From Tepiditoga spiralis (GTDB lineage Bacteria; Thermotogota; Thermotogae; Petrotogales; Petrotogaceae), in assembly GCF_014701195.1 (NCBI RefSeq), contig NZ_AP018712.1:310001-374000 (forward strand): DNA of 64,000 nucleotides, read 5' to 3'. The notes below the pieces were generated by a model that saw nothing but the letters and a program-made list of their open reading frames with translations, was not told the origin of the DNA and made no database searches. This document shows positions 14,296 through 19,728 of the stretch, piece after piece. Within the stretch, counting starts at the first letter, position 1. Each line of letters starts with the position of its first letter. The translations under genes were made by a program, and so were the position numbers.

Positions 14296-15783
14296 ATATC
14301 ATTATCTTTAAAAAATTTTGAAGTTTCAACTAAGTTAAATTCTTATGCTGGAAAAGATTGGATTAAAGGTGAATATGTTGTAAAATATAAAAATTCTTTT
14401 CCACAAACAAGAGGTTTAAATGTAGAAGTTTTAAAAACAAACAAATTAGACAACAGCTATAAACTCTCTGTTATAAAAGCAGATGAACAAACTGTAAAAA
14501 GCTTAAAAAATAATTCAAATATTGAATATATAGAACCAAACTATGTATATAAAGCTTTTTCAGTAACTCCAAATGATTCTTATTATACATATCAATGGCA
14601 TTACAACACAATAGATCTTCCAAAAGCATGGGAGATTTCAAAAGGTGAAAATGTCATAGTTGCAGTAGTAGATACTGGAGTTAGTTTAACACACCCTGAT
14701 CTTAAAGGAATATTTGTAACTGGTCATGATTTTGTTGATAATGACTCTGATCCTACTGATCCTGCAAAAGATGAAAGTCATGGTACTCATGTAACAGGTA
14801 CTATAGCAGCTCTTACAAACAATTCAAATGGTGTATCAGGTGTAGCTTGGGGTGGTTACGGAATAAAAATAATGCCTATAAGAGTTTTAGGTGCAGATGG
14901 TTCAGGTTCGCTTGACAATGTTGCTTTAGGTATTAGATATGCTGCAGATCATGGTGCAAACATAATAAATATGAGTCTTGGTGGAGGAGCTAACGCTCAA
15001 ACATTAGCAGATGCAGTTAAGTATGCTCATGATAAAGGTGTAACAATAGTTACTGCTTCAGGTAATGACAATGGATCAATTTCTTATCCAGCAAAATACC
15101 CTGAAACTATAGCTGTTGGTTCTGTAAGATATGATTTAAAAAGAGCATGGTATTCAAATTATGGACCAGAATTAGATGTTGTTGCTCCAGGTGGAGATAC
15201 ACAAGTTGATCAAAATAATGATGGCTATGCTGATGGTGTTTTAAGTACAACTTGGAAACCAGATACTGGAGACACATATGTTTTCATGCAAGGTACATCA
15301 ATGGCATCACCACACGTAGCTGGAGTAGCAGCTTTATTATACGCTCACGGTATAAAAAATCCAGAAGATATTAGAAATGTACTAAGAAATAGTGCAACTG
15401 ATTTAGGAGATACTGGATATGATAATTACTATGGCGCAGGTTTAATTAATGCTTATAATGCTCTTACATATAATGATAATGGAAATGGTGGAAATGGTGG
15501 AGGTAGCACACCACCAACAACAGCTAAATTAAAAGCTTTTGTTTTAGGTTATGATTATTGGCAAGGTGGTTATGTAGTAATAAGTGATACACAAGAAGTT
15601 GTAAACGGTCATTATCAATTAAATGAAGTTCAAACAGGTTATACATCTTATGTATGTGTATGGCAAGATAATAATAATAATGGAAAAATAGATTCAGGAG
15701 ATTATTGGGGATATGATGGAAGTTACAATTTCAAAGCAAACCAAAATTATAATGTTAATTTGACGGCAACTATAAAACCTTAA
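14296..15783 (+). CDS. Subtilisin-like S8 protease with intact catalytic triad but no start codon (5'-truncated?)
   Basis: The open frame runs from the stop at 14293 to TAA 15783 (495 codons). It has a propeptide-like region (about 14320-14560, ending IEYIEPNYVYK), then the S8 catalytic domain. The triad is Asp in VVDTGV at 14671, His in HGTHVTG at 14779 and Ser in GTSMASPHVAG at 15298. A ~85-residue C-terminal domain contains an Asp/Asn-rich calcium-like loop DNNNNGKIDSGD. In this frame there is no ATG, GTG or TTG before the internal ATG at 14872, which lies after both Asp and His, and no signal peptide. The gene therefore looks beheaded, or uses a rare start. It is still free of internal stops. 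Confidence 0.75.
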   Translation: MSLSLKNFEVSTKLNSYAGKDWIKGEYVVKYKNSFPQTRGLNVEVLKTNKLDNSYKLSVIKADEQTVKSLKNNSNIEYIEPNYVYKAFSVTPNDSYYTYQWHYNTIDLPKAWEISKGENVIVAVVDTGVSLTHPDLKGIFVTGHDFVDNDSDPTDPAKDESHGTHVTGTIAALTNNSNGVSGVAWGGYGIKIMPIRVLGADGSGSLDNVALGIRYAADHGANIINMSLGGGANAQTLADAVKYAHDKGVTIVTASGNDNGSISYPAKYPETIAVGSVRYDLKRAWYSNYGPELDVVAPGGDTQVDQNNDGYADGVLSTTWKPDTGDTYVFMQGTSMASPHVAGVAALLYAHGIKNPEDIRNVLRNSATDLGDTGYDNYYGAGLINAYNALTYNDNGNGGNGGGSTPPTTAKLKAFVLGYDYWQGGYVVISDTQEVVNGHYQLNEVQTGYTSYVCVWQDNNNNGKIDSGDYWGYDGSYNFKANQNYNVNLTATIKP

Positions 15784-15793
15784 AACTCCGGGA

Positions 15794-15825
15794 GACGTGA
15801 ATATTTTATATTCACGTCTTTTTTT
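15794..15825 (+). terminator. Intrinsic terminator of the subtilase gene
   Basis: A 10-bp perfect stem, GACGTGAATA (15794-15803) with TATTCACGTC (15809-15818), followed by seven T residues. Confidence 0.85.
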
Positions 15826-15878
15826 AAGTTTCTTTTAAGTTCCAAAGAGTATTATTTAAGTAACTTGGAGGTGATTAC

Positions 15879-15998
15879 ATGAAAAAAACTTTAATGTTTA
15901 TTATGGCACTTGCTATAATTGCTGGAGTTTCTAATGTAAAAGATTTAAACTTATCAAATAATGATATTCCAAAAACAGTTAATCAATTAGAACTATAA
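15879..15998 (+). CDS. Short 39-residue exported peptide
   Basis: The frame encodes a charged MKK start, a hydrophobic stretch TLMFIMALAIIAGVS and a polar 20-residue tail (KDLNLSNNDIPKTVNQLEL). A near-ideal ribosome site GGAGGTGA (15867-15874) sits four bases before the ATG. It is placed between its own upstream terminator (after the subtilase gene) and a downstream 19-bp hairpin. These features argue for real translation and export. The size and plan are those of a pre-pro signalling peptide of the Phr type or of a small lipoprotein-less exported peptide; no Cys or lipobox is present. The function is unknown. Confidence 0.7.
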   Translation: MKKTLMFIMALAIIAGVSNVKDLNLSNNDIPKTVNQLEL

Positions 15999-16040
15999 AA
16001 AATATATACCGATTACTTTTTTCATAAATATATACTCCCC

Positions 16041-16081
16041 AAAAAACAACCTTCAAACCAATGGTTTGAAGGTTGTTTTTT
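16041..16081. terminator. Strong bidirectional terminator
   Basis: A 19-bp perfect stem (16041-16059 with 16063-16081), loop AAT, with an A6 run on one side and T6 on the other. It ends the short peptide gene on the plus strand and the phosphoesterase gene on the minus strand, whose stop codon it overlaps. Confidence 0.9.
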
Positions 16082-18119
16082 ATTTTTTTATTTTAAATTC
16101 ATCCAATATTTTCCCCTCAACATTTTTATAAACAAGTTTATCAGCATCTAAAAGTTGAGATACGGCCTTTACAGTAAAACTTAATGTATTTGATGTAGCT
16201 TCAACTTGTACAAAATGAGTATAATCTATTATATCTTTTTTTATCCATGGTAAAGGTGTAGCAGTATGAATTGTATCTAAAGGAGCTCCTCCACCTCCAG
16301 TTGTAATAAACACTATTCCATCTTTTTCATATCTTTCATAAGCATGTATATGACCATTCATTACAGCATCAACCTCATATTGTTTAAATATTGGCATCCA
16401 ATACTTTATTAATTCATTTCCATCTTCTTTATTTTCTGCCATAGGTCCATATTGTTGAGACGTTGTCCAGAATGGGTGATGAAAAAATACAATTTTAAAA
16501 GTTTTATTTGTTGAATTCAAATCATTTTTCAACCAATTAATTTGAGCTTTAAAAGCCGTATCATTAGGTGAAATATTTGAATCAATCATGGTAAAATGAA
16601 CACTTCCATAATCAAATGAATACCATCTTCTATTATAATCTCCTCCACCATTTGGTAAATCAAATGCTCTATAATAAAAAATATTGTTATATTCATGATT
16701 TCCAAGAGTTGGATAATAAGCCGTATAAGGAGCTAAAGGTTCTAATGCCCAAAAAAACTTTATCCAATCTTTTTCATAATTACCTTTTTCAACTAAATCT
16801 CCAGTATTTATAACAAAATCCGGATTTGTTTTTGACATTGAAATAACAACTTCTTTATGTTTTTTTTCATAACTCCTAGTATCTCCATAAACATCAAAAA
16901 CAAATTTTTGTGGTTTTTCACTAAAAGTTTTAAAATAATAAATTGAACTTTCAAGAGGTTTTGTATATTTATTTCCAACAAATACCATATATTCATATTT
17001 TTTATTTGGTTTTAAACCAGTTATTCTTATATGATGCACATTTGTAGTATAATTTGTTTTATATCTTCCAACTTCTTTTTGATTATCATAAACAACTACA
17101 GTTGCAAGATCTGGATATAAAAGTTTGAAATTAACTATAACTCCATCTGTGTTTTTCGCAGTTAAAAATGGTTTATATAAAAATTCATTTTCTTTTTTTA
17201 TATTTATATTTAAAGATGTTTTTTCATTTAACGAAATCTTTTCAAAGTTTAAAGTTCCAAAAACTGGCATTACATAATAATTATCTTTAGGAAGATTAAA
17301 CGATACATCTCCATTTTCATTTGTATATCCAGTTGAAATTATATTCCCTTTAAAATCTACTACTTCTGTTAAAATATCTCTTGCAGGAATTGTATTCCTC
17401 AATTTTATACTGACTGTATAAGTTTTACTTTCATTCAATAATTCTTTTTGAAAATTTGATATACTTTTATCAATCTTAATAAATCTTGAAATTGTTGTTG
17501 TTTCATTTGGTTTTAGCTTTTGATATTTTGGAGTTATTGCAGTTGTATTTTTTATATTTATTATTTTAAATATCTTAGTTGAATTATAAGAATCATAATA
17601 TAAAGCAACATTATTCTCTTGAATCATAAAGTTATTTTTACCATTAAACTTTTTAGATACAAAGTAAGGCATAGAAGAAGTATAATCTAAAATATCTGTA
17701 AACTTTAAAAATTGTTGTTTTTTAGAAATATTTTTAATTTTAGAAACAACAAAAATTGTGTTTTTATTTAACGTATAAGTTGTTTCAATGGAATATTTTG
17801 AACCGAGTTGTGTTAAAGCAACTCCATTATTTATAAACTTTAAATCTGTATTTTTTAATGTTTCTCCAGATATAAAATATCTCATCACATCTAAAGTATC
17901 GTACTTATACTTTTGTGAAAATACATCAATAATTCTACCTGAATTTTTATTATTTAAACCGCCAACAATAAAACCAACTTCATCATTTTCTACAAGAATA
18001 TCACCTTTATTTGCGTCTGTTGATCCATATAACTTCAAATTTTTATCTACAACTTTTACCATTGAAAAAACATTAATGAATAATAACATCATTGTAAACA
18101 ATAAAAATATTTTTTTCAC
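16080..18119 (-). CDS. Secreted calcineurin-like metallophosphoesterase with N-terminal beta domains
   Basis: A signal peptide (MKKIFLLFTMMLLFINVFS) is followed by ~370 residues of beta-sandwich type, ending in a fibronectin-III/purple-acid-phosphatase N-domain (ITGLKPNKKYEYMVFVGN). The catalytic domain has all metal motifs in order: GDTR near 408, NTGDLVEKG, GNHEY near 470, FFHHPFW near 546 and NGHIHAYER near 590, plus GGGGAP. The likely role is extracellular or periplasmic phosphomonoester hydrolysis. The second GTG (18119) is chosen as start since AAAGGGG lies 8 bases before it; the GTG at 18128 abuts that site. Confidence 0.9.
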   Translation of the reverse strand: MKKIFLLFTMMLLFINVFSMVKVVDKNLKLYGSTDANKGDILVENDEVGFIVGGLNNKNSGRIIDVFSQKYKYDTLDVMRYFISGETLKNTDLKFINNGVALTQLGSKYSIETTYTLNKNTIFVVSKIKNISKKQQFLKFTDILDYTSSMPYFVSKKFNGKNNFMIQENNVALYYDSYNSTKIFKIINIKNTTAITPKYQKLKPNETTTISRFIKIDKSISNFQKELLNESKTYTVSIKLRNTIPARDILTEVVDFKGNIISTGYTNENGDVSFNLPKDNYYVMPVFGTLNFEKISLNEKTSLNINIKKENEFLYKPFLTAKNTDGVIVNFKLLYPDLATVVVYDNQKEVGRYKTNYTTNVHHIRITGLKPNKKYEYMVFVGNKYTKPLESSIYYFKTFSEKPQKFVFDVYGDTRSYEKKHKEVVISMSKTNPDFVINTGDLVEKGNYEKDWIKFFWALEPLAPYTAYYPTLGNHEYNNIFYYRAFDLPNGGGDYNRRWYSFDYGSVHFTMIDSNISPNDTAFKAQINWLKNDLNSTNKTFKIVFFHHPFWTTSQQYGPMAENKEDGNELIKYWMPIFKQYEVDAVMNGHIHAYERYEKDGIVFITTGGGGAPLDTIHTATPLPWIKKDIIDYTHFVQVEATSNTLSFTVKAVSQLLDADKLVYKNVEGKILDEFKIKK

Positions 18120-18180
18120 TTCAAACACCCCTTTCGAATTAATATATAATTATACTATATTTTAAAAAAAAATAAAAATT

Positions 18181-19728
18181 TTAATCAAACTTTTTTATAA
18201 TTCTTAAAAATTTTTTTTGATCATTTTCATTAAAACACCAAAAAGCTGTAATAGCAGTTTTCTTTTTTAATTTAAAAGTTTTACAAAATTCATCTAAATA
18301 TTTATTTGTTTCAATACTAAAAGAATTTTTTAAATATCTTGAATAATTCCTAATAAAAATATCCATTATTTTTTTATCTTTTTCTTTTAATTCTAAATAA
18401 TTATTTATAAATTTTTTTAATTTATCATCTTTTAAAGAATAGAGAAATATTTTTGCTAACTTTTTTCTTCCTTCATATATACAATGAGAGTTTTCTATAG
18501 ACTCTATTATAAATAATTTTAATTTTAGATTTTCTTGAATTAATTCAATATTATTATTTAAAATGTCATTTATTATATTTTTTATATTTTTACTTATAAA
18601 AGGATAATTTTTCTTTCTATTTTCCTTTGACATATAATTTGATAATACTTTTATAATAAAAGTATTATCAAAATTTAATTTTAACTTATAATTCTTTATA
18701 TTTAATTTCTTTAATTCATTTATAATTTCAAATGGAAGATTATTATTATATTTTATATTTAAACTCAAAATTAATTTTTGTAATGTTTTTGAATTTATTT
18801 TTTCTGTTTTATTATCCAGTATAGAATAAAAAGTTTTATTTGAAATTCCTGTTTTTTTATAAGCATTATGTATATTTTTTATATTATTTTTAATAAAATT
18901 TTTTAAAGTACTATTATTTTTATAAGACGATGTATTTAAAGAATAATAATTTTCATTAATATATTTTTTATAAAAAACTTCATCTATTTCATAAACAAAT
19001 GAAGTTAAATAAAAAAATTTATTTTCATTATTGTGTTTTAAAACATGAATATACGTATCTATATACATTTCTATATCTTTAAAACTTTCAATATAATATC
19101 CTATATAATACATTAAATAATTTACAAACTTATACGAAATTTTGGGATGATCATAAGCTAAATACCATGAAACATTATTCAAAATTATTAAAATTGCACT
19201 AACATGTGGAATTTTAACAGATGTTTTTAACATCTTTAAATATGTAGATATTGCTTTTTTTATTTTATTTTCAGAAGTTAATTTTCTAGCTCTTCCTATA
19301 TTTATAAAAATATAAGAAGATTCATCTAAAGTATAACTTTTACCCCATAATCTAATAGTTTTTGAAGTTTCAATAGATGCCTCAAAACTAAAAAAACCTC
19401 CAACCAAAGTATTCCTTGAAAGTGGAGGTATTTTATGCATTTCAGACTTTAATCTTTGATATAATATAGAAGCTTTTTTAACATTTACTTTTTTTAAATA
19501 AAATAAATACTCTCCCAACAATAAATATTTAACATTCTTATCATTACATAAATCTAAAGCTTTTATAATAAAATTTTTAAACTCATCATCATTTTTTAAT
19601 TCTAAAGCTCTTATATAAAATAAAATATTCTCATTTTTTGTCGTTTTTTTAGTATAATTTATTAATGGTTTTGAATAAGAACCATACTTTGATACCATTT
19701 CCAAAAATCTATAATCTCTTTTTTCCAT
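18181..19728 (-). CDS. Unrecognised helical-repeat protein with an internal XRE-like helix-turn-helix
   Basis: This is a 515-residue soluble, Lys/Asn/Ile-rich protein predicted to be almost all helical. Residues 1-270 have a TPR-like periodicity (KASILYQRLKSEM, KIKKAISTYLKMLKTS). At about 285-325 the run YKKTGISNKTFYSILDNK followed by SKTLQKLILSLNI has the spacing of a Cro/XRE helix-turn-helix and its trailing helix. The rest (330-515) is again helical. TPR plus HTH recalls RRNPP peptide receptors, but there the HTH is N-terminal, so this is not a normal member. It starts 10 bases after the TylF-type methyltransferase gene and is probably cotranscribed. Its base composition is even more AT-rich than its neighbours. 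Confidence 0.6.
   Translation of the reverse strand: MEKRDYRFLEMVSKYGSYSKPLINYTKKTTKNENILFYIRALELKNDDEFKNFIIKALDLCNDKNVKYLLLGEYLFYLKKVNVKKASILYQRLKSEMHKIPPLSRNTLVGGFFSFEASIETSKTIRLWGKSYTLDESSYIFINIGRARKLTSENKIKKAISTYLKMLKTSVKIPHVSAILIILNNVSWYLAYDHPKISYKFVNYLMYYIGYYIESFKDIEMYIDTYIHVLKHNNENKFFYLTSFVYEIDEVFYKKYINENYYSLNTSSYKNNSTLKNFIKNNIKNIHNAYKKTGISNKTFYSILDNKTEKINSKTLQKLILSLNIKYNNNLPFEIINELKKLNIKNYKLKLNFDNTFIIKVLSNYMSKENRKKNYPFISKNIKNIINDILNNNIELIQENLKLKLFIIESIENSHCIYEGRKKLAKIFLYSLKDDKLKKFINNYLELKEKDKKIMDIFIRNYSRYLKNSFSIETNKYLDEFCKTFKLKKKTAITAFWCFNENDQKKFLRIIKKFD

Follow-up and report, generated by a model that had tools for sequence, protein, structure and literature searches.

A 39-codon gene in the 64-kb stretch of Tepiditoga spiralis DNA analyzed here (the window) is best explained as encoding an exported peptide that is controlled by envelope stress and is probably a signal of the peptide/TPR kind. 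We assign this overall reading a probability of roughly 0.5. It draws on the translation signals of the gene, on its promoter, which resembles the CiaR promoter of streptococci, and on a family of peptide and TPR genes found in the order.

The micro-gene and its neighborhood

The micro-gene lies between a truncated subtilase gene and a convergent phosphoesterase gene (Table 1). Its reading frame was the only intergenic ORF in the 64-kb window that passed a fixed filter, which called for 25 to 70 amino acids, a Shine-Dalgarno sequence, a lysine or arginine near the N-terminus, a hydrophobic core, and no overlap with a long ORF. When the 296-bp intergenic stretch was shuffled with its dinucleotides preserved, 0.9% of the shuffles yielded any ORF passing a loose filter, and none of 3000 did so once GGAGG was required. 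The predicted peptide consists of the n-region MKKT, the h-region LMFIMALAIIAGV, and a polar tail of ∼21 amino acids (SNVKDLNLSNNDIPKTVNQLEL). It contains no Cys and lacks a strong AxA cleavage site, the likeliest cut being after Ser18. The Shine-Dalgarno sequence of htrA in the same genome is GGAGGTGATATTTATG. Only 42 bases separate the stop codon of the micro-gene from the downstream terminator. When the organism's own genome was searched at the DNA level, this terminator additionally gave a match on the minus strand.

Table 1. Features in and around the micro-gene (positions in the window)
Feature	Position	Strand	Remarks
S8 subtilase gene (Peptidase_S8), 5′-truncated	14299..15783	+	without start codon or signal peptide
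Terminator between subtilase gene and micro-gene	15790..15822	+	ends subtilase transcript
CiaR-like direct repeat TTTAAG-N5-TTTAAG (predicted response-regulator site)	15823..15839	+	exact, G positions intact
−10 element TATTAT	15850..15855	+	10 bp past second half-site
Shine-Dalgarno sequence GGAGGTGA of micro-gene	15867..15874	+	GGAGG-to-ATG gap of 7 nt
39-codon ORF, predicted exported micro-peptide	15879..15998	+	frame MKKTLMFIMALAIIAGVSNVKDLNLSNNDIPKTVNQLEL; filter and shuffle statistics
Terminator, bidirectional and symmetrical, common to micro-gene and convergent phosphoesterase gene	16041..16081	both	
Exported calcineurin-like phosphoesterase gene, between micro-gene and TPR gene	16080..18128	−	
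515-aa member of a TPR protein family with internal Cro/CI-type HTH, candidate intracellular peptide receptor/regulator	18181..19728	−	

The first-pass annotation had described this frame as an exported micro-peptide gene with a well-placed ribosome site, a signal-peptide-like N-terminus followed by a polar tail, and terminators on both sides. All of these elements were found again, and together with the filter and shuffle results they support the description well. We are therefore highly confident, as far as can be predicted from sequence, that the ORF is a real, expressed gene, and we expect its product to be exported. Conservation of the frame in related Thermotogota, which had been proposed as a check, was not found: no homologue of the 39-aa peptide was detected in 40 relatives (best E value of 0.15, chance level), a negative that is not decisive as all of these belong to other genera, and phage records contained no credible match.

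The subtilase gene is probably 5′-decayed. Within the family it has a single close relative, 62% identical, in genome G017 of the Marinitoga group; this orthologue is intact and carries a lipoprotein-like signal. Directly 3′ of the G017 subtilase gene lies a 42-aa exported ORF, MKKILFVIISILVFSTVMLGEDEKGKTNTTRITSDHQITVRY, with AGGAGGGG, which is followed by a terminator and then by a convergent TPR gene of the same family as the one in the window. From this layout, the order of subtilase, micropeptide, and convergent TPR gene is shared by the two genomes, the phosphoesterase gene having been inserted here. The two TPR proteins are 29% identical, so that they are family members without evident orthology. 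A contig search with the phosphoesterase as query did not find relatives. No CiaR-like box is present upstream of the syntenic G017 peptide gene.

A CiaR-like promoter and its candidate regulator

The strongest clue to when the micro-gene is on is its promoter, which was absent from the first-pass annotation. Searching the genome's DNA for the region upstream of the micro-gene gave a second match in front of htrA. The exact repeat TTTAAG-N5-TTTAAG occurs four times in this 2.5-Mb genome, and three of these copies are followed by a −10 element at 10–11 bp, compared with none in reversed controls. The three targets are htrA (Trypsin_2 and PDZ domains), a gene for a SurA/PrsA-like PPIC foldase, and the micro-gene. 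Across the order, 17 of 38 genomes, all of one family, contain the box with its −10 element, with 33 occurrences in total and again none in reversed controls. It precedes htrA in five genera (g1, g2, g3, g7, g8); other genes downstream of it encode a Zn-metallopeptidase (PF04298), a TolC-like protein, and exported or membrane proteins. Chance may explain some of the matches, for instance those that fall within coding sequence or precede unclear genes. A looser definition of the box gave 35 matches versus 0 in controls; the genes gained in this way encode exported proteins and have as many as four half-sites in register. Boxes with one mismatch lie in this genome upstream of a TolC-like/efflux operon and upstream of bacA and a DUF368-like gene.

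Several further loci behind such boxes were observed. The gene bacA, for undecaprenyl pyrophosphate phosphatase, forms a single operon with the DUF368-like gene under the one-mismatch box (C1:1310.2-1311.4 kb, L158). Exported proteins of 170–230 aa are encoded behind tandem half-sites at L115, L107, L108 and in relatives (g2, g3); the one tested gave no Pfam hit. An ORF-less RNA of ∼57 nt (G000 C1:783528-783620; L044, L166) combines a CiaR-like box of four half-sites in register with TATAAT, CCCCC ... TCCCCA, and a terminator, and a similar ORF-less RNA stands upstream of a DUF368-like gene in six g2 genomes (L160-L165). These ORF-less box-driven RNAs look like candidate small RNAs, csRNA-like but outside the streptococci.

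The CiaR promoter of streptococci consists of TTTAAG-N5-TTTAAG, a spacer of 10 nt, and TATAAT, and small RNAs (csRNAs) are among its targets (PMC3091779, PMC8317062). The gene htrA is regulated by CiaR (PMC10197876). The promoters described here agree with the CiaRH regulon in their identical direct repeat, in the same −10 spacing, in htrA as a main target, and in including small transcripts that end in terminators. They differ in that they belong to another phylum, the literature descriptions that we found being from streptococci; that the regulator is a candidate by operon linkage, not an established CiaR orthologue; and that the targets additionally include the foldase, the Zn-metallopeptidase, a TolC-like efflux gene, and the mRNA of an exported micro-peptide. 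We regard CiaR-like envelope-stress control of the micro-gene as likely.

Three genomes of the Marinitoga group have the box at the head of an operon that encodes a histidine kinase and a response regulator of the OmpR type. The response regulator of these operons is 66–68% identical to one of the six response regulators encoded here (L081, C1:509.7-510.4 kb), but shares no more than 40% identity with any of the other five. Since the upstream region of this gene carries no box of its own in this genome, the assignment rests on orthology, by which we infer that the response regulator of C1:509.7-510.4 kb is the likely candidate regulator of the micro-gene. Genomes of g6 are called the Marinitoga group here; this is supported by Marinitoga lauensis, one peptide of which is identical to one from a g6 genome. 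A further two-component system (L085), next to an exported-protein gene, was considered as the regulator and rejected, as it has no box and differs from the response regulator of the box-headed operons. This system (C1:1113.0-1117.5 kb; L085, L154) follows a gene that encodes an exported protein of 200 aa, likewise without a box, and is possibly a second envelope-stress system.

Peptide/TPR gene pairs in the Petrotogales

The TPR gene of the window belongs to a multi-copy family, with up to nine matches per genome, that was found in 25 of 38 genomes. Its members combine TPR signatures with those of a Cro/CI-type HTH in the middle of the protein, the HTH being absent from some short ones. Pfam searches returned TPR_12 (1.6e-8) and HTH_3 (2.3e-5) in family members and no hit for the window copy. 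Within 600 bp, a divergent exported micropeptide ORF accompanies 28 of 47 TPR genes (the distinct ones having sufficient upstream sequence), but only 3 of 263 other genes, and these three represent a single locus adjoining tRNA genes. Rgg-SHP pairs are frequently divergent too. The motif TTG-N3-RYCATRT-N9/10-TANNNT is located upstream of 24 of the 33 peptide genes, against a background of 0.008 per 300 nt over the fetched sequence as a whole; this count is descriptive and no independent test, because the motif was derived from these same promoters. In these TTGAAA-CATATG promoters, the CATATG sits between −35 and −10 and may plausibly serve as an operator. A search with the family alignment returned only Marinitoga lauensis and no viral match. 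The structure model of the TPR protein reached a pLDDT of 56, and a fold search with it returned generic TPR folds only. We conclude that the TPR proteins with an internal HTH are an unannotated, undescribed multi-copy family whose genes are usually divergent from an exported micropeptide gene, and that these pairs could be cell-to-cell signals and their receptors in thermophilic bacteria.

Two complete pairs are present in this genome, at C1:229.9 kb and C1:941.8 kb. Behind the cassette of the former (C1:228.4-232.9 kb, L209) lie genes for PqqD and a radical-SAM/SPASM protein, which suggests that this pair controls, or belongs to, a RiPP cluster. Other cassettes adjoin radical-SAM genes, ABC genes, and Cys-rich small ORFs. 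Small ORFs at L226:3838-4169 and L228:2863-2970, some of them Cys-rich, resemble RiPP or bacteriocin precursors, and an ABC transporter gene adjoins those in L228.

The pairs are reminiscent of the RNPP systems (Rap-Phr, PlcR-PapR, Rgg-SHP; PMC3601965, PMC3150281), in which an exported pre-peptide of ∼40–53 aa is likewise combined with a TPR protein. The occurrence of several paralogous pairs per genome is also shared with them and so, apparently, is the Cro/CI HTH, signatures of which were seen in many copies of the family. In contrast to RNPP proteins, the family carries its HTH mid-protein rather than N-terminally, and a PDB search with the TPR protein found no match to solved RNPP receptors. 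The window differs further in that the micro-ORF sits 3′ of its own TPR gene instead of divergent from it. For Thermotoga maritima, a small secreted peptide that acts in a density-dependent manner has been proposed as a signal, according to a survey of thermophiles (PMC6022435). It is likened to the present peptide by description only, as a small secreted peptide from the same phylum. Apart from this reported peptide signal, the survey describes no complete peptide quorum-sensing system, and it suggests that as yet unknown proteins might take part (PMC6022435). In the open-access literature, our search for RRNPP receptors in Thermotogota yielded no paper, which is weak evidence of absence.

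The micro-peptide itself is connected to this family by position. Against the peptide-family profile it scored 5.4 bits, whereas unrelated signal peptides reach 6–12; the 42-aa peptide of G017 scored 23.5 bits, compared with at most 12.2 for unrelated signal peptides. No CATATG operator was found in the region upstream of the micro-gene. Because both the profile match and the operator are missing, the ORF was not filed as a family member, although it is syntenic with a recognized family peptide in G017. The micro-gene is convergent with the TPR gene, not divergent from it, and the phosphoesterase gene lies in between. The TPR gene of the window has no divergent peptide, as is also the case in G017, so that by position the micro-peptide would be the leftover partner. 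The idea that it signals through a TPR protein, for which the link is positional only, is accordingly held tentatively and with some doubt. The earlier proposal that the peptide is a signalling molecule thus gained real but indirect support from the syntenic G017 peptide and the peptide/TPR pairs of the order, but it did not gain a match to the family profile.

Weighing the function of the micro-peptide

If the overall reading is correct, the micro-gene would be transcribed, from a predicted start near 15862, as a monocistron of ∼220 nt that the OmpR-type regulator of C1:509.7-510.4 kb would switch on upon envelope damage. The peptide would be exported via Sec and then trimmed to its tail of ∼21 residues, so that NVKDLNLSNNDIPKTVNQLEL or shorter C-terminal pieces would be expected in the medium or the membrane fraction. 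The neighboring subtilase, now decayed, may have been the original processing protease. In the least secure step, the tail would be re-imported and read by the TPR-HTH protein 18181-19728 or a paralogue. A more specific version holds that the peptide is an envelope-stress alarm pheromone, in which a CiaR-like two-component system took over a secreted-peptide gene and the TPR-HTH receptor family senses the product; we consider this version rather unlikely as it stands.

A promoter common to htrA and the foldase fits equally well with a peptide that acts locally on envelope stress, e.g., a membrane peptide tuning HtrA, the sensor kinase, or Sec, with no intercellular signal and no receptor required. 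The weak cleavage site would allow such a peptide to remain membrane-anchored, and its sequence does not match the TPR-linked peptide family. The synteny with the subtilase-linked peptide of G017, which scores 23.5 bits in the family profile and has no such promoter, speaks against this reading, and we regard a local effector as possible but on the unlikely side. The transcript could also be a CiaR-dependent small RNA, its ORF being incidental or secondary. The published search rule for csRNAs, a CiaR promoter in an intergenic region with a terminator within 250 nt (PMC3091779), is matched by the box, −10 element, and terminator found here; C-rich, sRNA-like transcripts without an ORF do occur behind the box elsewhere in the family; and, in the predicted fold, CUCCCC at 16034-16040, immediately 5′ of the terminator, is able to pair with the Shine-Dalgarno sequence of the micro-gene itself, which lends weak support. 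Such an RNA appears improbable given the strong Shine-Dalgarno sequence joined to a signal-peptide-like frame, a combination never obtained in the 3000 shuffles. Moreover, without its terminator the RNA is no more structured than shuffled sequences (z of −0.8), and TCCCCA is not enriched within the window.

Since the adjacent subtilase gene has lost its 5′ end, including start codon and signal peptide, the ORF might itself be a remnant, i.e., the promoter, ribosome-binding site, and signal peptide of a larger exported protein in a decaying locus, and the lack of conservation in the peptide tail would agree with this. However, the counterpart in G017 is equally small and is followed by a terminator, and the short distance from stop codon to terminator leaves insufficient space for a lost domain, which makes decay quite improbable. 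A precursor of a modified antimicrobial (RiPP or bacteriocin) would be in keeping with the PqqD and radical-SAM/SPASM genes behind another peptide/TPR cassette of this genome and with the radical-SAM, ABC, and Cys-rich small ORFs next to further cassettes. The micro-gene has no maturation enzyme gene among its identified neighbors, and its Cys-free product carries a Sec-type signal instead of a leader, so we give this explanation very little credence.

With regard to the biology of the order, the CiaR box appears to mark an envelope-stress regulon, centered on htrA, in a phylum different from that of the streptococci, and the peptide/TPR-HTH pairs provide concrete candidates for the signals and receptors of peptide signalling in thermophiles. 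If the alarm-pheromone version were true, the Thermotogota would possess multi-channel peptide signalling of the RNPP kind. Through the pairs and the CiaR-like regulon, stress-linked peptide signalling in this phylum becomes testable.
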